DNA of 35,688 nucleotides, taken from contig JABGSX010000052.1 of assembly GCA_018647505.1 (NCBI GenBank), positions 1 to 35,688 of the forward strand. The letters run 5' to 3'. This DNA is from a bacterium (GTDB lineage: Bacteria > Babelota > Babeliae > Babelales > JABGSX01). The position numbers and the translations under genes were made by a program. The notes beneath the pieces are model-generated. The model was not told where the DNA came from, ran no database searches, and was given only the letters and a program-made list of their open reading frames with translations. Numbering within the stretch: position 1 is the stretch's first letter; each line of letters starts with the position of its first letter. Below, piece after piece: positions 16,938 to 35,688 of this stretch.

Positions 16938-16967
16938 TTGATTTTTTTTTGGTTAGCTTGGTATATT
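16938..16967 (+). promoter_or_regulatory. Promoter of the ribbon-helix-helix gene
   Basis: TTGATT (16938-16943) is followed after 18 bp by TATATT (16962-16967), which is preceded by TGG to make an extended -10. The expected start of transcription (about 16974) falls at the edge of the 9-bp repeat array. Confidence 0.5.
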
Positions 16968-16975
16968 TTTCATGT

Positions 16976-17013
16976 TTACTACAATTACAAGGTTTACAGT
17001 TGTTACATTGTAA
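16976..17013 (+). promoter_or_regulatory. Four TTAC-type repeats with 9-bp spacing: probable operator of the RHH protein
   Basis: TTACT (16976), TTACA (16985), TTACA (16994) and TTACA (17003) start exactly 9 bp apart. The last is followed by its inverse TGTAA (17009-17013). The array lies between the promoter and the ribosome binding site of the ribbon-helix-helix gene. Such proteins typically bind short tandem repeats as stacked dimers and repress their own promoters, so this is a likely autoregulatory or accessory-protein binding site. Confidence 0.5.
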
Positions 17014-17033
17014 TATTTTCAAGAGGGAGATAT

Positions 17034-17333
17034 ATGAAAAAAGGATTGTTCAAGCCGGCAGCAACAAAAGGGTTAGAGTGGATTGAAGAAGAAACTGAAA
17101 ATCATGTTGCAAAAATTATTCCTATTTCAGATTCCAATACATATTTACCAAAAGAAACGGCCAAGCAAGGCCTTCCAGAAGGTTGGACCCGCGCAACTTT
17201 TATTATGCGTGAGCAATATCTGGAGGACCTAAAAAACATTGCCTATTGGGATAGGGAAACAATAAAAACTGTTTTGGACGTTATATTGGACAGATTTTTA
17301 AAAGGTAAAAAAGTACCGCCCCGAAAAAAATAA
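17034..17333 (+). CDS. Small ribbon-helix-helix-type DNA-binding protein
   Basis: I take the ATG at 17034 (99 residues). AGAGGGAG precedes it, and upstream codons of the open frame read through the promoter. The first 55 residues are polar and probably flexible. Residues about 57-95 read W-T-R-A-T-F-I-M-R-E-Q-Y-L-E-D-L-K-N-I-A followed by a second helix T-I-K-T-V-L-D-V-I-L-D-R-F-L-K-G. This beta-strand then two-helix layout (T-x-T-F-x-x, helix, turn, helix) is that of Arc/MetJ-type repressors, partition proteins and antitoxins. It precedes a tyrosine recombinase, so it may be a regulator or accessory factor for it. No partner toxin is visible. Confidence 0.6.
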   Translation: MKKGLFKPAATKGLEWIEEETENHVAKIIPISDSNTYLPKETAKQGLPEGWTRATFIMREQYLEDLKNIAYWDRETIKTVLDVILDRFLKGKKVPPRKK

Positions 17334-17341
17334 TAAGATAT

Positions 17342-17361
17342 CCCCGGCTAACCAGCCGGGG
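17342..17361 (+). terminator. GC-rich hairpin between the RHH gene and the recombinase gene
   Basis: CCCCGGCT (17342-17349) and AGCCGGGG (17354-17361) form a perfect 8-bp stem with loop AACC, followed by ACTATTTT. It is nearly all G and C in an AT-rich window. It may end or attenuate the RHH transcript; the T-run is short, and the recombinase ribosome binding site starts nine bases later. An alternative is a protein or recombination site. Confidence 0.55.
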
Positions 17362-17378
17362 ACTATTTTGGAGAATTT

Positions 17379-18296
17379 ATGAAGCCAGAAGCGTTTGACT
17401 TGGTAAAGTTATCGGTGTTATTTGTCTCTTCTTGTGATATTTCGCCTGGTTCACGTGCAACGTATAAAAATGCACTTCTGCGCTTTTGTCGGTGGTGTGA
17501 AAGTTCAGATGTAAAAGAGCCTGCCAGGCAAACTATCCTGTCATATAAGTTGTGGCTAGATACCCACGGGTTTAGCTCGTTTACAAAATCAACCTACATG
17601 GTTGTAGTACGCAGGCTTTTTTCGTGGCTTGAAGAAAATGATTTATACCCAGACGTATCAAAAGGAATAAGGGGGGCCAAACGTTATATTAAGTCCCATC
17701 AAAAGGATTCTCTTTCTATAAAGGCTGTTCAAAATTTGCTTGCAAGTGTTGATGGGTCATCGTTAATTGGGGTGCGTGATTTTGCAATCGTTAATTTGCT
17801 CATTCGGACGGGAGTGAGGTTAAAAGAAATTTCACTGGCAACAATTAATGATATAGAGATCAACGAAAATCAGATGCGGTTGTGGGTCTATGGGAAAGGG
17901 CGTGGCGGAAAAGATGAATTTGTTGTTCTTACCAAAGAATCTCTTGACCCAATAAGAGCTTACCTTCGTTGTAGAGAGTTAAGTAACTCGTCTGAACCGT
18001 TGTTCGCAGCACTCAGTAATCGTAACTATGGAAAAACAATGTCTACATTTGCTTTGTCAAAAATGGTGAAAAGAAGGCTGCGAGGAGCTGGAATCGATAG
18101 CAAAAGAATTTCGGCACATAGTTTGAGACATACTTTTGGGGTGTTGGCCATAAAGGCTGGGGCAAGCCTGTATGATGTTCAGTTGGCAATGCGGCATAGC
18201 ACACCCGGGACCACTGAAATCTATTTAGGCGATATTGAAAAAATAAAAAGAGCAGAGTCTTCTCCAGAGAAAAAAGTTCGGGATTTATTAAGATAA
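17379..18296 (+). CDS. Tyrosine recombinase, XerC/XerD-like
   Basis: This 305-residue protein has an N-terminal SAM-like core-binding domain (about 8-95) and a C-terminal catalytic domain with all six active-site residues: Arg147 (R-T-G-V-R-L-K-E), Lys173 (Y-G-K-G-R-G-G-K), His247 and Arg250 (A-H-S-L-R-H-T-F), His273 (M-R-H-S-T-P) and Tyr282 (T-E-I-Y-L-G). The length fits both chromosomal Xer proteins and small integrases. GGAG lies five bases before the ATG. It sits at the edge of the repetitive paralog array with an RHH gene upstream, so a role in an integrative element is possible, but dimer resolution at dif cannot be excluded. No att or dif site was found. Confidence 0.88.
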   Translation: MKPEAFDLVKLSVLFVSSCDISPGSRATYKNALLRFCRWCESSDVKEPARQTILSYKLWLDTHGFSSFTKSTYMVVVRRLFSWLEENDLYPDVSKGIRGAKRYIKSHQKDSLSIKAVQNLLASVDGSSLIGVRDFAIVNLLIRTGVRLKEISLATINDIEINENQMRLWVYGKGRGGKDEFVVLTKESLDPIRAYLRCRELSNSSEPLFAALSNRNYGKTMSTFALSKMVKRRLRGAGIDSKRISAHSLRHTFGVLAIKAGASLYDVQLAMRHSTPGTTEIYLGDIEKIKRAESSPEKKVRDLLR

Positions 18297-18437: not shown

Positions 18438-21400
18438 ATGAAGACTATTCTTAATAAAAAGATTTTTTTTCTATTTCTGTCTATTTCATTTTTATTGTCT
18501 AACAATATGAGCGCAAGTTGGCTTTCTGATATTGATCCTTTTGAGAAAAGTCTAAAAAATCAGAAGAGTGAATTTGTTGAAAGGCAAAAAGAAGAAAGGG
18601 TTGAGGCAGAGGCGCGACAAAAAAAAGAGCAACAATATATACTGGAAAAAAAGGCTGAGGAAACTTTGCAACAAAAAGAAAAGCACCAGTATACTTTGGA
18701 GGAAAATGCTGTTCATGTAGAAAATAATACAGGTTCGCCTATTTTTGTTTTAGCTGGTTGGAAGTACGCAGAAAAAGCTATTTTTCTTTCTGAAAAAATA
18801 GAATCGAAAAAAAATGGGGTTGCAGAATTTATTGGTGCGGAGCGGGCAACGTTATTATGGATTTTTTATGTTGATGACAAAAATCAAAAGAGTCAGCTTT
18901 TTAAGCTTCCTTCTTTGAAAAATAAAGGGCTTGAGGTTTATGATGGTTATATTGTTGAAGAAAGTGGAAAAAAAATAGAAGCAGAGCCTATTGTCATTTC
19001 AAAAAGCTTGAATGATTATATTTTTGGTTCTATTAAAAAAGGTGCTAACATTTCTTCTTCAATATCATTGCCAGAGCCTATAGAGCTAGATCCGTTAAAA
19101 AGGCTGTTAGAAAAAGGAAAAAAGTCGAACAATTTTACTGCAATAGAAAGCGTAGATTTAAATAATTATCTTAATGAAAATGATTATAAAAGTATTTCTG
19201 ACAGCCCTATAAAAGATGTTAATCCTCTTTTTAGAAATTGTTCTTTTGGTGGGGTTAAGTTTGGATCGGCAACGTTTAGGACTTGTCTTTTTAAAAAGAA
19301 CTCAAAATTGGATAATGCAATATTGGATGGAGCGAAACTTCCATTAATTAATATTTTTGACGGTTCATCAATGAAGAATGCTTCTTGTAAAAAAACTTAC
19401 TTTTCTTCGTCATGGGAAACAAAATTAAGCTATTTTGAGTCGGCACCAATTTTTTTAAATGTTGATTTTTCAGGAACAGATTTTTCCGGCGCAAAGTTTG
19501 AAAGATTTGGAATTGTTGGTTGCGATGCTACAGATTCTAATTTTGACTCTGCTAGTTTTAATACTGGTGCATTTGAAAAAATAAAGGGACTTAATAAGAT
19601 AAAAAACTTTAACAAGGCAAAGTTTGAAAATGTTACATTTGTTGATATAAATATGAGCGGAATAGATTTTTCAGGAATTAATTTAATAGATTGTAAGTTT
19701 TCTAATGTTACCGGAATTAATGGTTCAAGTTTTGATAATTCGGTTTTAAATAGGACAACTTTAAATGGATATGACTTTTCTAATAAAAACTTTAAAAATT
19801 GTTCATTTATTGAATCCAATTTATCAAATATAAATTTTGATGGGGCAGATTTATCAGGTGCCGATTTTAAAAAGACGAAGTTTTCTAAGGTAAATTTAAA
19901 TAATACTAATTTAAGTAGCGCAAAAAATCTAGAATTAACAACCTTATCTAAGCTTTCTATTAAAGGAGCAAATTTATCGGGCATAAATTTTGAAGGAATA
20001 GATTTTTCAGGAAAAGATCTGAGTGGTTGCAACTTTTCTGGATGCAATTTATCTAAAGCAAAGTTTGATAAAGCAAATCTTAATAATTCAAAATTTAATG
20101 GTGCAAATCTTTCTGGTGCATCATTTAGTGGTTCTTACATTCAAGGTGCAGATTTTACTGGTATAAAAAATTATAATAATTCAACATTTTTATCTTCAAA
20201 TGCGAATGATGAAACTAAATGGGTAGATGGCAAAAATATAAAATTTAATACCGCTTCAGTTTATGGTATTTCAATTGAAGGGAGAGATGGGTTTATTTTA
20301 GTTAATATGAGACCTGTTTCTTCTATAAGTTGTTGGGGCATATGGAAGAAAAAAGCCCAGGCTTCTTTAGTTTTAAGAAATATAGAAGCTGGTGGTGGCA
20401 TGGGAGAATGTAAGTTTATAGATTCTCGTGGGGCCGACTATTTATGGATTATAGAAAATGATGGAGCAAGTGGAGGCTCTGTATTTTCTATGCCAAAGGC
20501 AGGAGATTGTCTTTGTGCTTTCAGTGATGAAAACAGCTTATTAGATACCTATTTACAGAGTATGACATTTGGGGCAATTTATAAAAAAATAAATATAAAA
20601 TGGACTGGAAGTCTTGACCAAATAGCAAAGCAAAATAAGGTTCCATGGCTTGATGTTGCAAAATTAAACAATTTGGGTGCAATATTAATAACTTTAGGTT
20701 CTGTTAAAAATACATCAGGAAAAGTTGTTAATATTATTCCTAGTACAATTGTTCAAATTCCTTACAATCCGCTTAACTTGTCTTTGGGTAAGGTGAATCC
20801 GTTATATGAAAAAAGTATTAACTTAAAAAAATATTCATGGTACTCGGGCCGAAGTGAAGAATCCAAAATTCACTTTGTTCAGGCTAATAAAAAAATAAAC
20901 GGAGTGAGCTTTGAAAAAGCAAATATTTCCAAATATTTTAATGGAAAATTATTTAAAGGCTTTTTTCCTGGTACTGAATTTGATTCTTGCAATTTTGAAC
21001 ATGCTATATTGGACAGACTTGATTTAAGCCAAGTAACCTTTAAAAACTGTAATCTTAAACATGCTTCTTTTAAGCAATCAAATCTTTCTATGGCCGTTTT
21101 TTCTGAATGCAAAGGTGAAGATGTTGATTTTTCTATTGCAAATCTAGAAGGGGCAACGTTTAATACAAAGACTTATTCTAGTGGATATTTTTACAATTCC
21201 AATTTTAATAAAACAAACCTCAAGGACGTTGTTTTTGGCGGAACCTTTGGAGGCCTAAAAAATCTAAAAGATTCTATAAACTATAAAACAATTAAATTTG
21301 CGAAAACCTGTAGTTTATTTGGAGATTTTAGTGGTTTGAATCTTTCTGGAATGAATTTTTCTGGTGTTGGCTTTGGTGGAACAACAAATTTCAAAGGTGC

Positions 21401-24173
21401 AAACTTACAAAAAGCCAACTTTTCAAATTCGGATTTTAGTGGAGTTGATTTTGAAAATGCAAACTTAAATAATTCTATTTTTGACAATCCCCAAGTTAGT
21501 TATGGTAAAAAAGGATGCCCGTCATTTAAAGGGGCACAATTGAGAAACGTAAAAATTACTCCACTATTTAATTTTTCAATTAGAATAGGGCCGATTAACT
21601 TTTCTGGCGCTGATTTGCGTGGTGCTGATATGACAGCTTTAAAAGAAAATGATAATCCATTTTGGCAGCTTGTAAAAATTAGTCATTATAAGGATTATAA
21701 ACCGGTTTATAATTTTTCAACAATAAAAGGAGCGTGTGTAGACAAAAACACAAAATGGATTGATGGAAGGTCTGCAGCTAAACATAAAAAATCTATTGCA
21801 AGTTATGGTATGTGTTTTGACCAATGGCCTTGCCCTAATTTTTTAAATATGACAACACGCAAAACCATTACGGGAAATAATTTTTCGAATATGAAAATAT
21901 CAAAACTTCTTTCTGGAAAAAATATAAAAACAAATATTTTTACTAATTGTGTGTTCGATTATTGTGATATGTCAGAGCTGAATCTTTCTAGCAAGACTTT
22001 CAAGAATTGTTCTTTTATTGGAACAATTCTGAAAAATGTAGATTTTAAAAATTCATCTTGTATAAATACAAAATTTGATAAATCTATAGTTTATGAGGCA
22101 GATTTTTCTGGTGCAAATCTCTCTGGAGCATTGTTTAATTCAGCAGACCTAAAGGGGGTCAAGAATATAAATAAAGCAAAAAATATATCGTCTGTTTTTG
22201 ATTTTGATAACGCTGATTTAAGCGGGATTGACTTGTCTGGTATTTCTTGGAAGCAAAGAAAGACAAATAAAAAGAGAACATCCATTAAGCATGTTGTTGA
22301 CGCAAAGCAAGAAGAAAAGTTTTCAGCCTTAGCCAAATTTAATTCTAGCTCTTATGACTCAATTGGCGAAGGTGCCTTTGGTGGATATAAGCTAAAAATG
22401 AAACAAGAAACTGTTGTTAGTTCAGACTATATAAAAACAGGACCTTCATTTGTTGGAGCTAAAATGGCTGGTGTAAATCTTAAGAATTCTTCATTGAAAG
22501 AGTCATGGTTTAGCGGTGCGGATCTTACAGGAGCAATTTTAAACAATGCAGATGTTCAAGGCTCTTTATTTGCTAATGCAGTACTTGTAAAAGCTGATTT
22601 ACGAGGAGCCAACTTAAAAGACGCTCGATATTTTGGCAGTAAATGTTCAAGTTCAGACCTTAAAGCTGCAGTTACAGACTTAACGATGGGGAACAATTCA
22701 GAAAAAATAAGCAATAAACTATTAAAAGATGCTGTTTTGGATAGCAATACAACATGGTTGGGTGGATATAAAGTAGCAAAAGAAACGATAAGCGTTAATG
22801 CGGGGACTCTTTTTGTGCCTTTTTATTGGTGGGCAGACTCTTTGTTTGAAGGTTCTTTGAATATATTAAAAAATCCAAAAATAATTTTAAGACACATAAA
22901 TAAAAATAATATGTATTTTCTAATAAATGATAACTATCATTCTTTGTCAAAAAAGACCTCTGAGCATTCAAGTGGAAATAAATTCTTTAGTTCTGTATAT
23001 AAAAGATTAGGGAAGAATAAAACAATAAGAGAGGTAGATTTTTTCTTTGTGGATTCAGGCGTTAACTTAGGAATTAAAAGTAGTTACGGATATTTTTTTG
23101 GTTCTATTGGTGACTATAATATTAATCCTAATGCAGCAAAAAATGCAAAAAAGCTTGAAAATGAAAACGACGTAAAGGTTTTAATTGATATTTCCAGCAG
23201 CGATAGTTCAATAAATAATTCAAATAAGCCTATTGATGTATGGAAAAATACTAATCTAAATGCCTCAGGAAAATTAGTAAAAAATTATGTATCCATATAT
23301 AAAATGAGCGAGAAAGAGTTAATTTTTAAAATAGACGATAGATTTTACTTAAAAGGTTCGGCTGTAAGCCGTTTATCATCAATCGATAAGTTTGATGAGT
23401 ATTTAAAAAACTCCACAAACGGGTCGTTTGTTAAGAATCTTCCTATTATAAAAAAAGTAACCATATATAAAGCCCATGTTAATGGAATCCATTATTACCA
23501 GTGGAAAATAGATCTTAAAAAGTCTTTTGTAAATTCACAAGGGGTTAAAGCAAGCACTTTATATTATATATGGAGCGGTATTATTAGTAATAGATATTAC
23601 TATTTTGGTTCAAAAACTTTAGAAATTTGCAAAATTCCTGGAATTTCTGTTTTAAGCGCAGACAGTGAAGGTTCAATGTTGGCAGAAATTAATGGGAAAA
23701 AAAATTATCTTACAGGTCTTCCGCTTGAAGTCTCTGCAATTAAAAGCATTTTGAAAAAAAATGGATTTAAGGTTGGTGTAAATACCATTAAGAAAGATCC
23801 AAAATATTCTAAGCTTGTTAAAAATTGGCTAAAAGACTCCTGGTTAAAAATGAATATCCCAAAAGAAGTTCAGAATAAAATACATTTAAGTCTAGGAAAA
23901 GAGTGGAAGGCAATGGGTATTGAGCTTTTACTAGGTTCATTTAAAAATCTTGCAGACTTGCCAAAAAACTTGGTGGAGAATACTTTTGGAATTGGGCATA
24001 GTCATCATCATAATCATATAAAAGAAAATACTTCTGTGATGAGTAGTTTATTATCTGTGGATTTAAAATTTTCTGGCGAAGACGTTTATTTAAAGATATC
24101 AATAGGGCTTACAGATAAAACAACAGTTTCTTATGTTTCGAAAGACCCAATTTTTACTTTTAAAAAAGGATAA
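18438..24173 (+). CDS. Giant secreted multi-solenoid pentapeptide-repeat protein (1911 residues)
   Basis: The signal peptide is MKTILNKKIFFLFLSISFLL to about residue 27, followed by a Lys/Glu/Gln-rich coiled coil (35-90). A diverged copy of the family's roughly 100-residue module follows (about 90-205). Solenoid 1 (about 260-590) ends D-E-T-K-W-V-D-G-K. A second, canonical module (about 617-717) has D-G-F-I-L-V-N, C-W-G-I-W and G-A-S-G-G-S-V-F. Solenoid 2 (about 820-1100) ends N-T-K-W-I-D-G-R, then a linker G-M-C-F-D-Q-W-P-C. Solenoids 3 and 4 (about 1145-1445) are split by a Lys-rich insert. A C-terminal module (about 1450-1911) with H-S-H-H-H-N-H is shared with the 29008 gene. The function is unknown. 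Export and a surface or host-directed role are inferred from the signal peptide and repeat type. Confidence 0.88.
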   Translation: MKTILNKKIFFLFLSISFLLSNNMSASWLSDIDPFEKSLKNQKSEFVERQKEERVEAEARQKKEQQYILEKKAEETLQQKEKHQYTLEENAVHVENNTGSPIFVLAGWKYAEKAIFLSEKIESKKNGVAEFIGAERATLLWIFYVDDKNQKSQLFKLPSLKNKGLEVYDGYIVEESGKKIEAEPIVISKSLNDYIFGSIKKGANISSSISLPEPIELDPLKRLLEKGKKSNNFTAIESVDLNNYLNENDYKSISDSPIKDVNPLFRNCSFGGVKFGSATFRTCLFKKNSKLDNAILDGAKLPLINIFDGSSMKNASCKKTYFSSSWETKLSYFESAPIFLNVDFSGTDFSGAKFERFGIVGCDATDSNFDSASFNTGAFEKIKGLNKIKNFNKAKFENVTFVDINMSGIDFSGINLIDCKFSNVTGINGSSFDNSVLNRTTLNGYDFSNKNFKNCSFIESNLSNINFDGADLSGADFKKTKFSKVNLNNTNLSSAKNLELTTLSKLSIKGANLSGINFEGIDFSGKDLSGCNFSGCNLSKAKFDKANLNNSKFNGANLSGASFSGSYIQGADFTGIKNYNNSTFLSSNANDETKWVDGKNIKFNTASVYGISIEGRDGFILVNMRPVSSISCWGIWKKKAQASLVLRNIEAGGGMGECKFIDSRGADYLWIIENDGASGGSVFSMPKAGDCLCAFSDENSLLDTYLQSMTFGAIYKKINIKWTGSLDQIAKQNKVPWLDVAKLNNLGAILITLGSVKNTSGKVVNIIPSTIVQIPYNPLNLSLGKVNPLYEKSINLKKYSWYSGRSEESKIHFVQANKKINGVSFEKANISKYFNGKLFKGFFPGTEFDSCNFEHAILDRLDLSQVTFKNCNLKHASFKQSNLSMAVFSECKGEDVDFSIANLEGATFNTKTYSSGYFYNSNFNKTNLKDVVFGGTFGGLKNLKDSINYKTIKFAKTCSLFGDFSGLNLSGMNFSGVGFGGTTNFKGANLQKANFSNSDFSGVDFENANLNNSIFDNPQVSYGKKGCPSFKGAQLRNVKITPLFNFSIRIGPINFSGADLRGADMTALKENDNPFWQLVKISHYKDYKPVYNFSTIKGACVDKNTKWIDGRSAAKHKKSIASYGMCFDQWPCPNFLNMTTRKTITGNNFSNMKISKLLSGKNIKTNIFTNCVFDYCDMSELNLSSKTFKNCSFIGTILKNVDFKNSSCINTKFDKSIVYEADFSGANLSGALFNSADLKGVKNINKAKNISSVFDFDNADLSGIDLSGISWKQRKTNKKRTSIKHVVDAKQEEKFSALAKFNSSSYDSIGEGAFGGYKLKMKQETVVSSDYIKTGPSFVGAKMAGVNLKNSSLKESWFSGADLTGAILNNADVQGSLFANAVLVKADLRGANLKDARYFGSKCSSSDLKAAVTDLTMGNNSEKISNKLLKDAVLDSNTTWLGGYKVAKETISVNAGTLFVPFYWWADSLFEGSLNILKNPKIILRHINKNNMYFLINDNYHSLSKKTSEHSSGNKFFSSVYKRLGKNKTIREVDFFFVDSGVNLGIKSSYGYFFGSIGDYNINPNAAKNAKKLENENDVKVLIDISSSDSSINNSNKPIDVWKNTNLNASGKLVKNYVSIYKMSEKELIFKIDDRFYLKGSAVSRLSSIDKFDEYLKNSTNGSFVKNLPIIKKVTIYKAHVNGIHYYQWKIDLKKSFVNSQGVKASTLYYIWSGIISNRYYYFGSKTLEICKIPGISVLSADSEGSMLAEINGKKNYLTGLPLEVSAIKSILKKNGFKVGVNTIKKDPKYSKLVKNWLKDSWLKMNIPKEVQNKIHLSLGKEWKAMGIELLLGSFKNLADLPKNLVENTFGIGHSHHHNHIKENTSVMSSLLSVDLKFSGEDVYLKISIGLTDKTTVSYVSKDPIFTFKKG

Positions 24174-24176
24174 AAT

Positions 24177-25778
24177 ATGAAGTTTAGGACAATTTTATTG
24201 GTATCAATTTTATTTGGTTTCTTTTTCTCATCAAGGGCAGATTTTATTTTAATTAATAATGACCCCATGATGCCTGTAGGCGTATGGGGTGTTTGGAAAG
24301 AAAAGGCTCGGGTGATTTTGCTAAAAAAGAATATAGAGTCTGGTGGTGGAATGGCTTTGGTAAATTTTGCTAAAAATAAGCCTGATTATATTTGGATTGT
24401 GCAGAACTTTGGTCTAAGTGGTGGATCTATTTTTAAGTTAACAAAAAACTTGGACTGCTTTTTTATATATCAATCTTCTGATTGTTTTATGGATTGTTAT
24501 CTTGAAAGTGCTTCTTTTGGGGCCATTATAAAATTTGAAAATTCTTCTTTTTGTTCAAGTCAGGATAGCCTTTTAAATAAGAATATTTCTGCATTGGCAA
24601 AAAGAGTTCGGGATTCATTTGCAACAGAAGGCCTTGAGTTTGAAATTCCCTGTTCTCCCGTTGGAAATAGTTGCTATAACGCTGATATTAATGATGGAAA
24701 GTATAAGTTTCCATTTACTTCTAAGACTTCTTTAAGCTTGTTATCACTTTTTACAAAAGGTGGATTTATTGTAGGTAAAGACTATTCGAATAAAGATATA
24801 AGCGGATATTTCTTATCAAATGGGTTGAGTCCAGAAATTCCTTCTAATTCTTATTTTGTAAAATGCAACTTTAACAATGCTAACTTTAATGGGATTGACT
24901 TGAGAAATAGTATTTTTATAGATTGCTCTTTTAAAGAGGCTTTGTTTAAAGAAGTAAGTTTAGACTATTCTTCTTTTTCAAGTTCAACAAATTCAGGTCA
25001 ACCTATATCTTTTGTAGGGGCAGACTTCACAAGTTCTAGTTTTGTTGGAACAGTTATTAGAAATTCAGATCTATCAAATGCAAACTTCAAAAATTGCGTC
25101 TTAAATAAAACAACAATTAACAATTCAAAACTCAAAGGGAATGTTTTTGAAGGTTCCCAGTTATTAAATATGAAGTTAAAAGGTAATTTTGATTCTTCTA
25201 GTCTTATTGGTGCTAATATAACGAATGTTAATTTTGCAGGATCAAGTTTTAAAGAAGCTAATTTAAGCAAATCGGTTATTAAAAAGTCTAAATTTAACGG
25301 TTTAAATTTAGAAAAAGCAAATTTAAGCGGGGCAGTAATTAAAAATACGACGTTTTCTGGTTGTTATCTATTAAAGGCTAATCTTAATGATTCAGACTTA
25401 CGTGGAATAAATTTTGTAAAATCTAATCTTACAAATGCAAACCTAAAAAAAGCGCTATTACAGAAAGCTGATCTTACTGGTGCAAAAATAAGTGGCGCAA
25501 GTTGGAATGGGGCAAATCTTACCGGAACAAAAATGAACAGGACGGATAAAGCTGAAATTGTTTATGGGGGAAGTAAATCGGATAAAAATCAGATAGCAAT
25601 AGATACCGATAAAAGAGAAGCGATGAATTTATGGGGTATAATTCTACGTGAAAGACAACAGGCTTTTGAAAGTCTTGAGAACTTCGGTCGTAATCCTAGC
25701 CCAAATATAAGTGGTTACGGTTATAATAGCGGGTACGGAAATAATCCTTATTCAAGAGATTTACACATAGATTATTAG
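24177..25778 (+). CDS. Secreted pentapeptide-repeat protein with the shared N-terminal module (533 residues)
   Basis: The gene starts three bases after the previous stop, with AAAGGA inside the end of the upstream gene, so it is co-transcribed. The signal peptide is M-K-F-R-T-I-L-L-V-S-I-L-F-G-F-F-F-S-S-R-A, followed by A-D-F-I-L-I-N-N-D-P. The module spans about residues 21-120 with V-W-G-V-W, S-G-G-G-M, Y-I-W-I-V and G-L-S-G-G-S-I-F. A sub-motif A-K-R-V-R-D-S-F-A-T-E-G-L-E-F follows. The pentapeptide solenoid spans about 215-460. The tail is Gly/Tyr/Asn-rich (G-Y-G-Y-N-S-G-Y-G-N-N-P-Y) and ends H-I-D-Y, while the paralog at 33268 ends E-V-D-Y. There is no T-K-W-I-D-G cap. The first 80 bp of this gene and of the next gene are very similar, showing recent shared origin. 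Confidence 0.87.
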   Translation: MKFRTILLVSILFGFFFSSRADFILINNDPMMPVGVWGVWKEKARVILLKKNIESGGGMALVNFAKNKPDYIWIVQNFGLSGGSIFKLTKNLDCFFIYQSSDCFMDCYLESASFGAIIKFENSSFCSSQDSLLNKNISALAKRVRDSFATEGLEFEIPCSPVGNSCYNADINDGKYKFPFTSKTSLSLLSLFTKGGFIVGKDYSNKDISGYFLSNGLSPEIPSNSYFVKCNFNNANFNGIDLRNSIFIDCSFKEALFKEVSLDYSSFSSSTNSGQPISFVGADFTSSSFVGTVIRNSDLSNANFKNCVLNKTTINNSKLKGNVFEGSQLLNMKLKGNFDSSSLIGANITNVNFAGSSFKEANLSKSVIKKSKFNGLNLEKANLSGAVIKNTTFSGCYLLKANLNDSDLRGINFVKSNLTNANLKKALLQKADLTGAKISGASWNGANLTGTKMNRTDKAEIVYGGSKSDKNQIAIDTDKREAMNLWGIILRERQQAFESLENFGRNPSPNISGYGYNSGYGNNPYSRDLHIDY

Positions 25779-25815
25779 TGTAACATAAAATATATGATAT
25801 AAAAAAGGAGCAGAT

Positions 25816-28800
25816 ATGAATAGCGGTGTGAAATTTAGGATCATTTTATCGATATCAATTTTATTTGGTTTCTTTTGCTCATCAAGGGCGGATTTTATTT
25901 TGATCAATAATGATTCTATGAAGCCAATAAGCATTTGGGGGGTCTGGAAAAAGAAGGCTCAGGCAGTATTGCTAAATAAAGAAATTTCGCCTGGGATGGG
26001 CATGGCCTCTATTTCTACTTTAATGGCAAAGGGCGCAACTCACATCTGGGTTATTCAAAATTGTGGTTTAAGTGGTGGTTCTATATTTTTAATGCCGAAA
26101 AACAACGACTGCTTGTATGTTTATTCTGATCAGAATTGTAATTTAGATTCATACTTAGATAGCGTTGCGTTTGGAAATTTTTATAAAAAGTTAAATCAGA
26201 AATGGTGTGGCAATGTTAGTAACTTTGCAACAAAAATTCAGGACATGGCTAATGAAGTTAGAATTTCATATGCAAAAAGGGGGGTTGTGTTTAACCTAAA
26301 ATACTCTCCTTTTGATCTCTCTTACCAAAAAATAAACAAAAATTATAGTTCTACCGATCCTGTTTATACTGGTGTGCCAACAGATGAAAATCTTAAAAAT
26401 TTGGTGTCTAACGAGTATGGGCATACTATGTATAATGCTGACTTTAGTAATTATAATGGATCTGTTAAACCTTCAATTGCAAAGTTTGTTAATAATAATG
26501 GTGGAACAATAAGAAAAGCCATCTTTATTCAATGTAAATTTGATTCTTCGGATTTAAAAGGATTAGACCTGGATGATATATTGTTTCAGGATTGTTCTTT
26601 TAAAGGGGCTAATTTGGCAGGAACAAGTCTGAAAAATACAAGTTTTACTATTACAGAAGGATCGTTGAAAAACATTAGTTTTGCTAATTCAAATTTGACT
26701 GGTTCTCAGTTTATTAATTCAGAAATTGAAAAAGGGGACTTTTCAAAATCTAAACTTTTTGGAGCTAATTTTTCTGGTGCAAGCTTGGTAAATTGTAATT
26801 TTAACGGATTGAGTTTTAATAAAGTTGATTTGCGTGGAGCTGCAAGCCTTAAGGGCTCGACTTTTAAAAAATCAATTTTTAGGGGTGCTAAATTTAACGA
26901 TAAAACTAATTTTACTGGGGCAATTTTAGATCAAGCCATCTTTGATCATATAAATTTGTCTGGAATAAAGTTTGAAGATGTTTCTATGATAGGAGCTTCA
27001 TTTAATTTATCAACTTTTGTTCGTAAGGTTAAAGGGGCTCGAGTAAAATTTTTAGGCGTAAAAACTTTTTTAGTGAAAAAAATTAGAACGAGTTTTAAAA
27101 ATGTAATTTTTTCTACTAAAGCAAATAAGAGTGATTTTTCTAAATTAGATTTTAACGGTGCGGCATTTAATAATGTGCAGTTTAATGGGGCAAACCTTAC
27201 AAATACAAAGTTCATTGGATCTATATTTAAAGGGGCTAGCAGTTTTAATGGGTCGATATTAAAAAATACTAACTTTAAAGGCTCATTTCTAAATGGCGTT
27301 GACCTTAGAGGCATTGCTGGTAAAAAAATTGATACAGCAATTTTAAATAGCGTTGATTTGAGCCATGCAAAAATAGCTGGTATTTCTTTTGACGGGAATA
27401 AGAATCTAAGCTACACAAATTTTTCCAAAAATGATCTTACCGGATGTAGCTTTAAAAATACAGTATTGATAGATTCAAATTTTGGCCAACAAAAAAAACT
27501 ATCCTGTAATTTTTCTGGATCAAATTGTAGTATGGCGAATTTTTCAGATTCTAATTTAATGTCGTGTTATTTTACAGCTGCAAATTGTAGCAATGCAAAT
27601 TTCTCAAAATCTACTTTAGCATCATGCAATTTTACAGCTTTAGGGCCAACTACTGCTAAATTAACAAGCGCAAATTTATCTTCTACAAAAATAAAAAATA
27701 CAAATTTTTCGAGCGCAGATTGTAGCAGTGCAAATTTTGGTTCATCGAATATTGATACGTGTCTTTTTAAGGATAATTCTAAGTTAACAAGCGCTAATTT
27801 ATCGTCCGCTACAATAAAGAATACGAATTTTACAGGTGCAAAATGTAGTATGGCGAATTTTTCAAAATCAACATTAACATCTTGTTTGTTTACTATTTCT
27901 AATTTAATAAAGGCTAAATATTCTCATTCTATATTAGATAAAAATAATTTTGTTGGTGCAAATTGCAACAATGCTGATTTTTCAAATTCAACATTAACAT
28001 CATGTAACTTTACTGCTTGGGGACCAACTACTGCTAAATTAACAAGCGCAAATTTATCTTCTACAAAAATAAAAAATACAAATTTTTCGAGCGCAGATTG
28101 CAGCAGTGCAAATTTTGGTTCATCGAATATTGATACGTGTCTTTTTAAGGATAATTCTAAGTTAACAAGCGCTAATTTATCGTCCGCGACAATAAAAAAT
28201 ACAAATTTTACAGGTGCAAGTTGCAGTATGGCGAATTTTGGTGCATCGAATATTAAAGCATGCAATTTTACATCCTCAACATTAAAAAAGGCTTATTTTG
28301 GTGATTCAAAAATACAATCGACAAAATTTGTCTCAGCAAATTGTATTGGGGCAAATTTTGTACATATAAACAGGACAGAAGGAACTAATGGTTATGATGC
28401 TGCGGATTGTAACTTTAATGATGCAACTTTGGTAAATGCTAAGTTTAATGCGTCCTCATTGATAGGGTCAACTTTTGCTGGTGCTAATTGTACGATTGCG
28501 GATTTTTCATATTCTTGTATTTGTGCGGCACCAGAAACCTGTGGAAGTAGTTTTTCTGGAGCAACATTGAGATCTGCAAAATTTGTGGGGGCTACCGCTA
28601 AACATACAGACTTTACGGAAGTGACAGGTCAGTATGCAAATTTTTCAAAATCTAATTGCTCGCACTCTATTTTTGATTATGCAAATTTTGGTTCAACATC
28701 TGCTGGTCATGATCAGGCTGACTTTAGTAATGCGACATTAATTGGAGCGAGTTTTTCTGCATCTATAATAGACTATGTTTCTTTTAGTTCTTCAAATCTT

Positions 28801-28983
28801 ACAAAAGCAGATTTTAGAGGCTTTGGTGATGGTAAAGGTTATGACGGCGTTCTGCAGACTACTGAGGCTAGAGATATGAACCTGGCTGGAGCAACTGTCA
28901 CAGGGGCTCAGTTTGCACATATTGATTTAAGAGGTGTTGTTGTTCCCCCTGGGGCGCATTTTGGTTATCATGTTTGGAGTTAG
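25816..28983 (+). CDS. Secreted pentapeptide-repeat protein with Cys-ladder solenoid (1055 residues)
   Basis: AAAGGAG precedes the ATG. The signal peptide (about 1-31) is followed by A-D-F-I-L-I-N-N-D, and the shared module runs to about residue 130 (I-W-G-V-W, S-P-G-M-G-M, H-I-W-V-I, G-L-S-G-G-S-I-F). V-R-I-S-Y-A-K-R-G-V-V-F-N-L follows. The region at about 140-280 is a close paralog of the 33268 protein. The rest, about 205-1050, is one very long pentapeptide solenoid without the usual cap, ending G-A-H-F-G-Y-H-V-W-S. Between about residues 565 and 815 many repeats carry Cys at fixed 20-residue spacing, and the region contains a 126-residue internal duplication that is about 97% identical in DNA. 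The function is unknown. Confidence 0.87.
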   Translation: MNSGVKFRIILSISILFGFFCSSRADFILINNDSMKPISIWGVWKKKAQAVLLNKEISPGMGMASISTLMAKGATHIWVIQNCGLSGGSIFLMPKNNDCLYVYSDQNCNLDSYLDSVAFGNFYKKLNQKWCGNVSNFATKIQDMANEVRISYAKRGVVFNLKYSPFDLSYQKINKNYSSTDPVYTGVPTDENLKNLVSNEYGHTMYNADFSNYNGSVKPSIAKFVNNNGGTIRKAIFIQCKFDSSDLKGLDLDDILFQDCSFKGANLAGTSLKNTSFTITEGSLKNISFANSNLTGSQFINSEIEKGDFSKSKLFGANFSGASLVNCNFNGLSFNKVDLRGAASLKGSTFKKSIFRGAKFNDKTNFTGAILDQAIFDHINLSGIKFEDVSMIGASFNLSTFVRKVKGARVKFLGVKTFLVKKIRTSFKNVIFSTKANKSDFSKLDFNGAAFNNVQFNGANLTNTKFIGSIFKGASSFNGSILKNTNFKGSFLNGVDLRGIAGKKIDTAILNSVDLSHAKIAGISFDGNKNLSYTNFSKNDLTGCSFKNTVLIDSNFGQQKKLSCNFSGSNCSMANFSDSNLMSCYFTAANCSNANFSKSTLASCNFTALGPTTAKLTSANLSSTKIKNTNFSSADCSSANFGSSNIDTCLFKDNSKLTSANLSSATIKNTNFTGAKCSMANFSKSTLTSCLFTISNLIKAKYSHSILDKNNFVGANCNNADFSNSTLTSCNFTAWGPTTAKLTSANLSSTKIKNTNFSSADCSSANFGSSNIDTCLFKDNSKLTSANLSSATIKNTNFTGASCSMANFGASNIKACNFTSSTLKKAYFGDSKIQSTKFVSANCIGANFVHINRTEGTNGYDAADCNFNDATLVNAKFNASSLIGSTFAGANCTIADFSYSCICAAPETCGSSFSGATLRSAKFVGATAKHTDFTEVTGQYANFSKSNCSHSIFDYANFGSTSAGHDQADFSNATLIGASFSASIIDYVSFSSSNLTKADFRGFGDGKGYDGVLQTTEARDMNLAGATVTGAQFAHIDLRGVVVPPGAHFGYHVWS
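27646..27861 (+). repeat. Internal direct duplication, copy 1 (378-bp period)
   Basis: This 216-bp block recurs at 28024-28239 with about seven mismatches by eye (about 97% identity). The offset is exactly 378 bp (126 codons), so the frame and solenoid register are kept. Weaker similarity extends upstream of both copies. Confidence 0.9.
28024..28239 (+). repeat. Internal direct duplication, copy 2 (378-bp period)
   Basis: This is the second copy of the block at 27646-27861. Most differences are at third codon positions or in one A-K-C to A-S-C codon change near its end. Confidence 0.9.
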
Positions 28984-29007
28984 TGAAATATTTAAAAAGG
29001 AGTTGTA

Positions 29008-32000
29008 ATGAATCGTCGTGTTGCTTTCTTTGTTGCCGTATATTTTTTTTGTTTTGTGTCGATAATTAAACCAGATGTTATTGTTATGAATATGAGGTCT
29101 GTTTTGCCCGTTGGCGTTTTTGCCGTTTGGAAAGATAAGCCTCAGGCTGCGATGCTTATAAGAGAGGTTTCGACTGGTGGAGGAGTGGGGTCCTTTAAAT
29201 TGTCAGATGCCCACGACGCCAATTATCTGTGGGTTGTGGAAAAAGATGGCTCTAATGGGGGTTCAGTGTTTCCACTTCCTGAAGATAATTCTGTTATAAG
29301 TATTTATTCTGAACAAAGTTCTATAACAGATGATTATTTGGAGAATATTGTATTTGGAACAAAGAGCAAAAAAAATAACATTTCTTGGCAAGGAAAGAGT
29401 GATAGAGAGCTGTCCAAGGAGCTTTTTAGAAAACTCAAACAGCCTATTCCTGACTATTATGTGAGAAAGCTTAAAGATATTGGGGCTGATGTTGTCTCGA
29501 TAAAAAAAGTCTCAAAAAATGGTGTTTTTGTTGATTTTAAACCTGGATTTATTGCGCAAATATTTGTTTCACCCCTTGATATTAAGATGTCTAAAAAAAA
29601 CCCGGAATGGTACGATTCTACAGAGCTTGATGAATATCCTTTAACTTCAATAGGAACTAGCGAAGGCTACTATTTAAAAAAAGGTGCAAATGTTATAGGT
29701 AGAAAAGTATACAAAGGAATAAATTTTAATGAAAAGCTCAGAAAAACTCCAACTAAAACAATTATACCAGGAACAATTTTTAGCCATTGCGGCTTTAGCA
29801 GTGTTTCATTTGATGGGCTTACGTTGAGCAATATAACTTTTGATAATTGTGGGATTGATGATTCTTCATTTAAAAATGCAAAGATACTTAATTGTAAGTT
29901 TAAAAATCAAACATTGTTGCAATCGGTAGACTTTTCTGAAGCAGTCCTAACAGATGTTTCTTTTAATAATTCTGGTGCGACTTACCCAAAGTTTAAGGGG
30001 GCGACTCTTAATAACGTACAATTTGTAGGGGGACAAAAATATAGTCAATGCGTTTTGATTGAGCCTGATTTTGATAAGATAAAAAAACAGAATATTCAAC
30101 TTTGTGGACGAATTGTTTTATCTGGTGATTTTAGCGGCATGTCTCTTGGATATGTCGAACTTATAGACTTGAACAATTTTAAAAACAAACTTTCCTATGC
30201 ACAAGACTATTCAAAAGGTTATGGACCATTAAAAATTAATTTTAGTGGCTGTGACTTAAGAAAGTCTAAAATTGAAAATGCTCTTTTAAAAGGGGTGAAT
30301 TTTTCTGGTGCTGATCTAGCTGGGTCATCTTTGAAAAATTCAAAACTAATTAAAGCAAATTTTTCTAATGCTAAGATGGGTAGTATCAATCTTGAAGGGT
30401 CAAACCTTACAAATGCAAATTTTTCTAATTCTAAAGCATCAGAAACTAATTTAAACAAAGCTATTTTGACAGGTGCTAGCTTTGTTGGAACTGATTTATC
30501 AAATTCTGTTCTTGATGGTTCAACTTTATCAAACACAGATTTTTCAAATGGAATTCTAACGAGTGTTACATTAAGTGGGACCGTTGGTGGAAGAACGGCT
30601 ATTTTTAAAAATTCTAATCTTAAAAAAGTTGACTTGAGGCCGATAAAAGGCTCAGGCGTAAATACCAAAATAAACTTAGAAGGTGCAAATCTCTGTGGTG
30701 CAAACTTGCAAGGTTTTGCTTTCAAAGACTTTGGGCCGTTAAAAGGTGCTTGTGTTGACAAAACGACTAAGTGGTTTGATGGTAAACCACCATTTAAAAG
30801 TGGTTCTTTGTTGGTTAGAAATAATGGAATGTGTTTTAGCAATTGGCCTTGTGGAGATCTTTCTGTTTTAACTAGCAAAGATACTATTGAAAATTTGGAC
30901 TTTTCTTACCAAGAAATTTCTAAGTGGCTAAACAAAAGTATAATGGTAAACGGGAAACAAACTGGCCCATCTAAAAAAATAAAAACAAAGACATTTAAAA
31001 ACTGTGTCTTTGACTATGCAGATTTTTCTTGGGTGGACATGCCTATAGGGTTTGATTGGTCTAAAGTTTCTGTTTCTATGAGTGATCATTATTTAAAATT
31101 AGACTCAAATGGCTTAGATTTGTCTAGTTGCAAGTTTATTAATTGTTCATTTATTGGTGCTAATATTAAAAATGTTAATTTGTCTAACAGCAAAATGATT
31201 GGTGCAAATTTAGAGGGTGCATGCTTGAATGGAGCTATTTTACATAATGTTGATCTTACAAATGCAAATTTAAAAATGGCCAACTTCGTGGACTCAGACT
31301 TAAGGGGTACAAATTTAACTGGAACCAAAAATTTTGCTTTTAATATCATAAGGTCTTCAAGGCGTTCGTGGTCTGATATTTCTGATTACCCAGAAATTAG
31401 TGGAGCCTTTGTATATGATACAACGATAAATAGTGACGGCAAAAATATAACAAAAAAATATTTTGATTCTCATAACTTAGAAAAATTAGGCGTAAAGCAC
31501 TTACCAGTATATTGGAAAAAAGACGACACCCCAATTATTAATGGCGCTTACCAAGTTGGTCATTTTTTAATTAGCGAAATTTTATTTGTTAGTGATAAAA
31601 GGCTTTGTTTTGTATGCAATGGCAAAGATAAGGAAACAACTTATTATTTTTCGCTAGATAGAGAGGCAAAAGATGACAAGTTCTGGAAAGATAAAAAAGC
31701 ATTTAGTTCAAAATTAAATAATATTTCAGACCCCATTAAAAGTTGTTCCATAGATTTATATGTAGACAAGAAATCAAAGGTCTATTTGCGAGTAAATATA
31801 GATTGGATAGGGTATAGCGATATAAAATATAACGATCTTTCATATATATCTTCAAACATACCTCTTAATGTCAACGAAAAGACTTCTTATTATGGGGAGA
31901 TTGGTGAATTGAATGCGTGTGATGATTTTATGAAAGAGTCGTACAAACTGGTTAAAAATAAAGTTGATAAAGCAAAAAATAAAAATATTTCTTCGTGGGT

Positions 32001-33162
32001 GGATGCAAATAATTCTTTACAAGATTTTAACAATCGAGGCAATTCTTTAATTAATAAGTCTAGTGATGTAAGAAGAGCTTTGCGTTTTATAGAGGATGGC
32101 CAAAGATCTTTTGATATTGCAGATCGCGACCCACACTTTAATAATGATGGCAATCCTATAAACGTTTGGGAGATGGTCACGAAAGAGGCTGCTGGTGTAA
32201 AAAGAAAAGATTACATACCAGTATACGAAATTAGTGACAATCGATTGTTGTTTAGTATAGATGGCCGGTATTTCTTAGATGCAATACGCACAAAAGGAGT
32301 TCAACATGGTGAAGGTTGGTATGATTATCAAAATTATCCTACAGACGGAAAATGGATAACTCCGGTTAAGCTTGTTTCATCAGAGACCAGAGATCCTTTG
32401 GATATTGTAGTAAAAAGCGTTAGAATTTGGAAAGAGCATAAATACACAAGACATTATTACGCAATAGAGCTTACCATTCCAACATATACTTCTTCTGGTG
32501 ATAAAAAGGTGTATTACTATTGGAATGGATATGATAGCAATAGATATCTTTGGTACAATGGAAAAAATATTCCTCCAATTTGCTCTTCGCCAAACATTGT
32601 TTTTCACCGGGCTCATAGCAACGGAGAAATGCATCTGACTGCGGACGGAATGTTTGGGTTGTTGTACTCTGGTGGTTTACTGAATAATTCTGGTGCCAGA
32701 AATAATTTAGGGATAGAAAGTATATGGGGCGTTGTCGATCTTAACAATGTATTAAAATATACTCTTCCGTTTGAAGCTGCTTATAATCCTGGTCCACAAA
32801 AACAACTAGATCCATTGGCTAAAAAATCTCTTGAACGGACAGCGCTTCTTATGGGAGTAGAGTTTGTTGCGAGTGGAGGAATCACTGCCTTGCCATTTGC
32901 TGCGGAAGCTGTCATGACTTCTTTAGCACAGCTTTCGGCCGTTGGAGGAAAAGTTTTAGGATTGTTTAAACATCACCATAAGCCTGTTCCAGATAGGACA
33001 AGCATCATGCTTTATATTGAATCCTTGGGCTTGATTCCTAGAAAAACTGATCCAAAAAATCTGTATCTAAGAGTTAATATTAAAACAACTGACAATAAAG
33101 TATGGCGCTTTTATTCTACAGCTCCTGTTTGGACTTTGAATCTAAAAGGTGCTACAGCATAA
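29008..33162 (+). CDS. Giant secreted pentapeptide-repeat protein with C-terminal His-rich module (1384 residues)
   Basis: AAAGGAG precedes the ATG. The signal peptide (about 1-22) is followed by the shared module (about 21-122: P-D-V-I-V-M-N, V-F-A-V-W, T-G-G-G-V, Y-L-W-V-V, G-S-N-G-G-S-V-F). Solenoid 1 (about 250-580) ends T-T-K-W-F-D-G-K, then a linker with G-M-C-F-S-N-W-P-C. Solenoid 2 spans about 660-785. The last 575 residues have no repeats and match the C-terminus of the 1911-residue protein: N-P-I-N-V-W, V-Y-E-I-S-D-N-R-L-L-F-S-I-D-G-R-Y-F-L, H-Y-Y-A-I-E-L, Y-Y-Y-W-N-G, then a hydrophobic stretch and K-H-H-H-K before a final beta-rich piece. A strong terminator follows. The function is unknown. 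Confidence 0.87.
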   Translation: MNRRVAFFVAVYFFCFVSIIKPDVIVMNMRSVLPVGVFAVWKDKPQAAMLIREVSTGGGVGSFKLSDAHDANYLWVVEKDGSNGGSVFPLPEDNSVISIYSEQSSITDDYLENIVFGTKSKKNNISWQGKSDRELSKELFRKLKQPIPDYYVRKLKDIGADVVSIKKVSKNGVFVDFKPGFIAQIFVSPLDIKMSKKNPEWYDSTELDEYPLTSIGTSEGYYLKKGANVIGRKVYKGINFNEKLRKTPTKTIIPGTIFSHCGFSSVSFDGLTLSNITFDNCGIDDSSFKNAKILNCKFKNQTLLQSVDFSEAVLTDVSFNNSGATYPKFKGATLNNVQFVGGQKYSQCVLIEPDFDKIKKQNIQLCGRIVLSGDFSGMSLGYVELIDLNNFKNKLSYAQDYSKGYGPLKINFSGCDLRKSKIENALLKGVNFSGADLAGSSLKNSKLIKANFSNAKMGSINLEGSNLTNANFSNSKASETNLNKAILTGASFVGTDLSNSVLDGSTLSNTDFSNGILTSVTLSGTVGGRTAIFKNSNLKKVDLRPIKGSGVNTKINLEGANLCGANLQGFAFKDFGPLKGACVDKTTKWFDGKPPFKSGSLLVRNNGMCFSNWPCGDLSVLTSKDTIENLDFSYQEISKWLNKSIMVNGKQTGPSKKIKTKTFKNCVFDYADFSWVDMPIGFDWSKVSVSMSDHYLKLDSNGLDLSSCKFINCSFIGANIKNVNLSNSKMIGANLEGACLNGAILHNVDLTNANLKMANFVDSDLRGTNLTGTKNFAFNIIRSSRRSWSDISDYPEISGAFVYDTTINSDGKNITKKYFDSHNLEKLGVKHLPVYWKKDDTPIINGAYQVGHFLISEILFVSDKRLCFVCNGKDKETTYYFSLDREAKDDKFWKDKKAFSSKLNNISDPIKSCSIDLYVDKKSKVYLRVNIDWIGYSDIKYNDLSYISSNIPLNVNEKTSYYGEIGELNACDDFMKESYKLVKNKVDKAKNKNISSWVDANNSLQDFNNRGNSLINKSSDVRRALRFIEDGQRSFDIADRDPHFNNDGNPINVWEMVTKEAAGVKRKDYIPVYEISDNRLLFSIDGRYFLDAIRTKGVQHGEGWYDYQNYPTDGKWITPVKLVSSETRDPLDIVVKSVRIWKEHKYTRHYYAIELTIPTYTSSGDKKVYYYWNGYDSNRYLWYNGKNIPPICSSPNIVFHRAHSNGEMHLTADGMFGLLYSGGLLNNSGARNNLGIESIWGVVDLNNVLKYTLPFEAAYNPGPQKQLDPLAKKSLERTALLMGVEFVASGGITALPFAAEAVMTSLAQLSAVGGKVLGLFKHHHKPVPDRTSIMLYIESLGLIPRKTDPKNLYLRVNIKTTDNKVWRFYSTAPVWTLNLKGATA

Positions 33163-33165
33163 ACC

Positions 33166-33211
33166 ATTTAAACAAAAGAGGTTGCCAAGTAGTAACCTCT
33201 TTTGTTTAAAT
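33166..33211 (+). terminator. Terminator after the 29008 gene
   Basis: A perfect 18-bp inverted repeat (33166-33183 with 33194-33211) encloses a ten-base loop, beginning four bases after the stop. The 5' side is A-rich and the 3' side T-rich (CCTCTTTTGTTTAAAT). It ends the four-gene transcript begun near 18438. Confidence 0.75.
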
Positions 33212-33230
33212 ATTTAGTAATTGGTATTAT
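33202..33230 (+). promoter_or_regulatory. Promoter of the 33268 gene
   Basis: TTGTTT (33202-33207) and TATTAT (33225-33230) are 17 bp apart, and TGG precedes the -10 (extended -10). The -35 lies inside the 3' arm of the preceding terminator, so the two elements overlap. Confidence 0.5.
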
Positions 33231-33267
33231 GTGAAAAATTGCTGTCTTTTTACAAAAAGGGGTGTCT

Positions 33268-35136: not shown

Positions 35137-35178
35137 TATGAAAATATAAATAAGACTGTTTATTAAAAAGGAGTTGTT

Positions 35179-35688
35179 ATGACTTTTCGCTTTAGTACCA
35201 TTTTTGCAATTCTGTTTTGTTTATCAAATTTGATAAAAGCAGACTTTATTTTAATTAATAATGATGCCCTTGTACCAATAAGTGTATGGGGCGCTTGGCA
35301 AAATAAGGCGAAGGTAAAGCTTTTAAACAGAGAAATTTCACCTGGAATGGGAATGGCTAATATATCCATGGCAAATAGCGGCACAAATAATCCAACGCAT
35401 ATATGGATTATTCCAAATTTTGGAATAAGTGGTGGCTCGGTTTTTCCAATGCCAAAAAGCAATGATTGCGTCTTTTCTTTTCCTACTCAAGATTGCTCTG
35501 TGGATCACTATTTGCAAAGCATGAGCTTTGGCACAAATACACAAAAATTGCAGCCAGAATCGTGGTGTTATACTCCTGCGAATATTCCGAGTAGTTTAAA
35601 AATTACACCAAATTGGTTTATAGAGAAAAGGGATTTGGCTAATACTGTTGTAAATTCTTTTGTGAATGTTGGGGAAGTATTTGATATA
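35179..35688 (+). CDS. Sixth array member, N-terminal part only (cut by window end)
   Basis: AAAGGAG precedes the ATG at 35179, and 170 codons stay open to the window edge. The signal peptide M-T-F-R-F-S-T-I-F-A-I-L-F-C-L-S-N-L is followed by A-D-F-I-L-I-N-N-D-A and the full module: V-W-G-A-W, S-P-G-M-G-M, H-I-W-I-I, G-I-S-G-G-S-V-F, and the Cys pair nine residues apart (D-C-V-F-S-F-P-T-Q-D-C). No pentapeptide repeats are reached before the cut. By analogy with its neighbours a solenoid should follow. Its gap from the previous stop is 42 bp. Confidence 0.88.
   Translation, partial: MTFRFSTIFAILFCLSNLIKADFILINNDALVPISVWGAWQNKAKVKLLNREISPGMGMANISMANSGTNNPTHIWIIPNFGISGGSVFPMPKSNDCVFSFPTQDCSVDHYLQSMSFGTNTQKLQPESWCYTPANIPSSLKITPNWFIEKRDLANTVVNSFVNVGEVFDI

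Follow-up and report, generated by a model that had tools for sequence, protein, structure and literature searches.

Phased arrays bound by ribbon–helix–helix (RHH) proteins classically have a period of 7 or 8 bp. At the met boxes recognized by the SAM-binding protein MetJ, tandem short palindromes with an 8-bp period form the operators, each unit binding one RHH dimer together with a metabolite co-repressor, and the centromere of the enterococcal PrgP–PrgO system is built from TATA boxes spaced by half a helical turn. Type Ib plasmid partition systems, including ParF–ParG of TP228 and delta–omega of pSM19035, join a ParA-type ATPase gene to a small RHH partner with a flexible N-terminal tail, and the contiguous phased repeats upstream, direct or inverted, act as both centromere and operator (PMC5016525, PMC9499535). 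The RHH ParB of pSM19035 needs at least four contiguous 7-bp repeats for activation of the ParA ATPase (PMC9499535), and whether the repeats are direct or inverted makes no difference to binding (PMC5016525). In archaea, SegAB pairs a chromosomal ParA orthologue with an RHH partner whose sites cluster near the locus and near an origin; the SegB site is a 13-bp TCTAGASTCTAGA palindrome, and SegB is reported to resemble no bacterial protein in sequence (PMC12284271). StbA of R388 has 9-bp direct repeats (stbDRs) around the promoter of the stability operon (PMC3098194).

Here we analyse a bacterial DNA stretch of 35,688 nucleotides (the window) in which four contiguous 9-bp units precede a gene for a 99-aa RHH-like protein. 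From sequence comparison, we put at roughly 0.7 the probability that the 99-aa protein, a ParG/omega-like RHH partner of ParA-type partition ATPases, binds this array as its cognate site, and that the array would act as an autoregulatory, centromere-type operator, here in an orphan state. As in type Ib systems, phased short repeats lie upstream of a small partner gene, and in relatives a ParA gene adjoins the partner. The locus differs from them in using 9-bp TACnnnGTA units instead of the 7-bp heptads of omega, in showing no detectable sequence membership, and in that no ATPase gene was found in the window or its assembly. The four-repeat minimum and orientation-equivalent binding described for plasmid arrays are compatible with a lattice of four units whose half-sites differ in orientation. 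By analogy, the array may work as type Ib partition operators and centromeres do and, on chromosomes, as in archaeal SegAB, whose sites are not a tiled 9-bp array (PMC12284271); the unit here is TACnnnGTA, not TCTAGASTCTAGA, and no ParA was found in the window's own genome. Chromosomal ParABS likewise has a ParA cassette close to the origin and cis sites of its own, whereas the partner here is an RHH-like protein of about 100 aa and not ParB. MetJ operators share the tandem palindromic units but not the period of 9, and the 99-aa protein showed no sequence relation to MetJ and no MetJ family or structure match. The R388 units, unlike those studied here, have the sequence TTGCATCAT and stand 2 nt apart, giving an 11-bp period (PMC3098194). 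A tiled 9-bp TACnnnGTA unit was not found in the literature searched. An earlier note on this DNA had proposed phased operator repeats for an RHH protein; to this the present analysis adds the link to ParA, the palindromic nature of the unit, the orphan status of the gene and the position of relatives close to the origin.

The repeat array and the 99-residue protein

Positions 16976–17013 of the window read TTACTACAATTACAAGGTTTACAGTTGTTACATTGTAA. Displayed as TTACTACAA TTACAAGGT TTACAGTTG TTACATTGTAA, the array has TTAC at 16976, 16985, 16994 and 17003 and the inverse TGTAA at 17009, as the earlier note had described it; TGTAA falls on the same 9-bp lattice. Read in register, these letters form four 9-bp units, TACTACAAT TACAAGGTT TACAGTTGT TACATTGTA (16977–17012), with the consensus TACnnnGTW. 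The locus contains the following features:

16938–16967, forward strand: promoter-like site, TTGATT (16938–16943), 18-nt spacer and extended −10 TATATT (16962–16967); consensus scan
16977–16985, forward strand: array unit 1, TACTACAAT (TTAC from 16976); sequence and matrix scan
16986–16994, forward strand: array unit 2, TACAAGGTT; sequence and matrix scan
16995–17003, forward strand: array unit 3, TACAGTTGT; sequence and matrix scan
17004–17012, forward strand: array unit 4, TACATTGTA, a complete pseudo-palindrome that contains the inverse TGTAA; sequence, lattice and matrix scan
17023–17029, forward strand: ribosome-binding site GAGGGAG; sequence
17034–17333, forward strand: gene for the 99-aa RHH-like protein, an orphan member of a family of ParA partners (centromere-binding); homologues adjoining ParA, low-confidence AF2 model, no ParA in the assembly
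17341–17362, no strand assigned: GC-rich hairpin CCCCGGCTaaccAGCCGGGG, terminator-like on both strands, at the end of the RHH transcript; computed scan
17379–18296, forward strand: tyrosine recombinase (Xer-like), neighbouring gene; family and homology searches

The array thus occupies the place claimed for it, between an extended −10 promoter match and the ATG of the RHH gene at 17034, a start that agrees with the homologues, which begin MKK. The promoter-like site matches 9 of 12 consensus positions in the consensus scan and carries TG ahead of its second hexamer; because promoter matches in the region are no more numerous than chance, this call is only suggestive. The exact four-unit pattern has one match in the 35.7-kb window, with a chance expectation of 0.08 at up to two mismatches, and a search of the whole assembly of 1,075,752 bases for further such arrays returned this site alone. 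The next-best separate match in the assembly has two mismatches (C11:18032), a reversed control pattern gave two matches, and three exact units occur at one other place, which is unrelated.

Curated family searches with the single 99-aa protein returned no Pfam match and no curated RHH family, and a PDB sequence search gave chance matches only, with no credible solved relative; matches to designed 'Pizza' propellers were dismissed because they fall in the N-terminal tail. In an AF2/AlphaFold model of low pLDDT, a disordered tail is followed by a possible TRATFI strand and helices at residues 60–71 and 74–90, a strand–helix–helix C terminus that is consistent with a ribbon–helix–helix fold. Alignment shows that the conserved core, TRATFI … LEKIKAxAYWERxxIK, makes up the C-terminal half of the family proteins. 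A Pontibacillus homologue annotated as RHH scores 18.2 bits (E = 0.0024) against RHH_1, just below the cut-off of 20.5 bits, and aligns to the family profile with 77% probability in hhalign; a second group of ParA partners from the phylum does so with 90% probability. PrgO is also a ParA partner, and 5 of 13 family members match its model (NF041284) weakly, with a best E of 0.0027, whereas the window protein has no match to it. Sequence evidence thus gives the original RHH assignment moderate support at most, through the topology, the homologue near the RHH_1 cut-off and the ParA-partner context; Pfam did not recognize the protein itself. The N-terminal tail is predicted to be disordered and residues 1–52 contain no arginine, and so lack the arginine finger of type Ib partners. 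ParA-linked relatives begin MKKRLG where the window protein reads MKKGLF, an N-terminal arginine being glycine here, and the N-terminal KGLEWI segment common to those relatives is kept.

A 9-bp lattice upstream of homologous operons

Lags between pairs of TAC (or of GTA) were counted in the 250 bp upstream of homologous operons and compared with 500 shuffles. In six other genomes of the phylum lag 9 gave 9 pairs where 0.85 were expected, and at seven plasmid and other loci it gave 10 where 1.3 were expected (0 of 500 shuffles in both sets). Lag 18 was likewise enriched (0 of 500 shuffles), lags 9 and 18 far exceeded other lags, and further peaks appeared at lag 27 and, in the phylum loci, at lag 36, with none at neighbouring periods. 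In the phylum loci GTA falls at +6 modulo 9 from TAC (offsets −30, −12, −3, 6, 15, 24, 33 and 42), which places direct and inverse halves on one lattice; the shared lattice in turn defines a pseudo-palindromic unit of 9 bp, TACnnnGTA, whose copies follow one another head to tail. One relative (G031) carries four such units consecutively, TACTTTGTA TACACCGTA ATACGTGTA TGCAAGGTA. A period set apart from the 7- and 8-bp cases, as originally claimed, therefore recurs upstream of homologous operons, and the proposed check for conservation found the phasing kept on plasmids as well as in further families of the phylum.

When a matrix was trained on the other loci only, the array had the top score in 35.7 kb (15.5–17.1; the best separate position elsewhere scored 7.8–9.1). 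Compared with 1,728 ordinary upstream regions, the window and eight homologous loci rank in the top 0.1–1%, the window's own upstream region within the top 0.5%. The signal is not universal, since six homologous loci (L010, L011, L014, L018, L170 and L171) fall outside the top ranks and show no individual lattice signal; upstream of the L011 and L019 homologues no array was found. In one case that counts against this reading, G097, a relative assembled as a single contig, the matrix ranks other places over the parA upstream region. Its best match in 1.22 Mb is an intergenic palindromic array, GGTAAACACGGTATTCACTGTAAGCTTTGTTTACC (L101:16519–16556; G097:1156519–1156556), which lies 22 kb from the GC-skew minimum of that genome and is a candidate second partition site.

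It is very improbable that the phasing arose by chance or reflects the low complexity of AT-rich DNA. AT richness of the upstream region and the missing signal at some homologous loci speak for such an origin; against it, a matrix built from other loci predicts the array, neighbouring periods show no lattice enrichment, and a pattern expected 0.08 times per window even at two mismatches is unique in 1.08 Mb. We instead favour the array as the operator of the RHH gene. One RHH dimer would occupy each 9-bp pseudo-palindrome TACnnnGTW, so that on four contiguous units dimers would stack side by side over about 36 bp immediately after the promoter, and occupancy of the array would repress the RHH gene. 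The conserved lattice and the window-free matrix support the idea, put forward at the outset, that dimers of an RHH protein stack on phased repeats at the promoter of their own gene, the binding itself being putative. In ParA-bearing relatives, we infer that the array upstream of parA–RHH doubles as a centromere-like partition site, on plasmids and at the chromosome origin. The lattice of 9-bp palindromic units is common to plasmids of several phyla and to chromosomes of a reduced-genome phylum, and it offers a specific DNA code, open to test, for a family missed by Pfam and NCBIfam.

ParA linkage of relatives and the orphan window copy

Close relatives of the 99-aa gene are present in 7 of 101 genomes of the window's phylum (tentatively Dependentiae, from gene content), the window's own included, and in five of these seven the relative lies directly downstream of a ParA gene (44–47% identity; four genomes of one family and one of another). 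Plasmids of Tenacibaculum, Lawsonia, Flavobacterium, Adhaeribacter and Pontibacillus show the same order, with the homologue immediately following ParA. In a further Tenacibaculum plasmid the homologue gene is split and no ParA is listed next to it, and scans of viral contigs contributed one further locus. Because homologues work with ParA, a DNA-segregation motor, both on plasmids and next to the origin of the chromosome, the array is very probably the 99-aa protein's own site. The tree of the RHH family is poorly resolved and does not separate horizontal transfer from descent.

A second, commoner type of ParA partner occurs in the phylum, with the pattern RITIHL..DLI.KVKN.V[FY]WEPG...GRP (L124, L127, L128, L130–L134 and L136–L140). 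It belongs to no Pfam or NCBIfam family, and its upstream regions are enriched for the 9-bp lag (26 against 6.7).

No ParA/MinD-like protein was found in the window's own assembly by searches with AAA_31, a relative's ParA protein and CbiA, the last giving two matches, in FtsY- and CTP-synthase-like genes only; within the window, neither ParA nor a ParA remnant was found. As the assembly is 89.8% complete, absence of ParA is likely and not certain. With ParA not found in its genome the window copy is an orphan, and with the ATPase missing the locus does not make up a complete partition cassette. The orphan keeps its array, and its product probably binds DNA site-specifically and regulates its own gene, as a partition protein that is now a relict or has been repurposed; it would exemplify in nature a centromere-binding protein that has outlived its motor. 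Elsewhere, a homologue on a Bacteroidetes contig (L005:3703–4207) is flanked on each side by a J-domain-like gene, has three TAC repeats at 9-bp phase upstream and has no ParA within 4 kb; an array-bearing gene can thus exist without an adjacent ParA.

Chromosomal position and the neighbouring recombinase

Genome G097 is a single contig of 1,222,284 bases with a clean V-shaped GC skew, its minimum at 1,134 kb and its maximum at about 480–484 kb, and its parA–RHH pair lies at 1,125.3–1,126.5 kb (G097:1125342–1126487; L100, L135). In G027, G029, G030 and G031, which form one syntenic lineage, the skew changes sign on the cassette contig, 12–19 kb away. All five relatives with a close ParA–RHH pair therefore carry the cassette 9–19 kb from the GC-skew minimum, so that origin proximity of the window's type rests on two independent lineages. 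Cassettes of the second partner type lie 10–15 kb from the skew minimum in G004 and away from a local minimum in G047. Placement of the G097 origin at the skew maximum, considered because dnaA lies at 431 kb, was rejected because rpsL–tuf, at 271–275 kb, is co-oriented with an origin at the minimum; the position at the minimum is likely but not proven.

ParB (PF02195) scores above the cut-off in 1 of the 101 phylum genomes and has no match in the window's own genome, whereas ParA is present in 23 of 101, mostly with a small partner gene behind it. ParA and its RHH partner are a possible chromosome partition module where present, resembling SegAB. We tentatively propose, at slightly less than even odds, that chromosomes of this phylum, where an active system exists, are segregated not by ParB/parS but by an origin-proximal ParA whose small RHH partner acts on arrays of 9-bp TACnnnGTA units. 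This bacterial counterpart of SegAB would probably derive from plasmids, and the window's lineage would have lost the motor and kept the RHH protein and its array, now near a terminus-side recombinase and in a different role. Should the origin-proximal cassettes indeed segregate chromosomes, they would constitute a ParB-independent bacterial partition system parallel to SegAB.

The window's block MATE–CarD–miaA–…–recA–infC–rplT–rny–ymdB, with an EamA gene and the recombinase, is also grouped in G097 at 487–505 kb, where it adjoins the skew maximum and has no RHH gene; the window RHH gene thus belongs to a block whose G097 counterpart is on the terminus side. This position bears on whether the window protein is still an active partition protein, its ParA missed in the incomplete assembly (89.8%) and its array the centromere of the chromosome or of an unbinned plasmid. 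We regard this as unlikely: three independent searches of the assembly found no ParA/MinD-like ATPase, the gene is not behind parA, unlike its close relatives, and the surrounding recA–rny–ymdB–EamA–recombinase block matches the terminus-side block of G097 and not its origin. In its favour are the presence of ParA in 23 of 101 phylum genomes, the retained KGLEWI segment and the intact appearance of both array and gene.

The adjoining tyrosine recombinase raises the possibility that it and the RHH protein form one unit, with the array serving as an accessory or excisionase-type site and not as operator or centromere. The recombinase is 36% identical over its length to one adjoining parA–RHH on a Tenacibaculum plasmid, and on a Lawsonia plasmid an integrase with local similarity only follows the partner gene. 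This arrangement is nonetheless quite improbable, less likely than an active partition protein: the recombinase is widespread in the phylum as a solo gene with no RHH protein, the two genes lie about 590–640 kb apart in G097, a strong hairpin separates them in the window, and the array is conserved with ParA operons and not with the recombinase. A direct array–recombinase link was accordingly rejected on the strength of the solo recombinases, and the orphan operator of the RHH gene remains the preferred reading.

In G097 the Xer-like recombinase (L038, G097:487062–488015) lies at the GC-skew maximum, the terminus, with a second Xer-like gene at 477 kb, and it is possibly a chromosome dimer resolution enzyme. 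At the other edge of the window, positions 3–1259 hold the C-terminal part of a lipoprotein-like gene with near-identical repeats, RERLEETAEGVRERASDIRDRGQEMVDRG. Downstream of the recombinase, positions 18438–35688 encode a tandem series of very large pentapeptide-repeat-like proteins of 1911, 533, 1055, 1384 and 624 aa, followed by one that is cut by the contig end.
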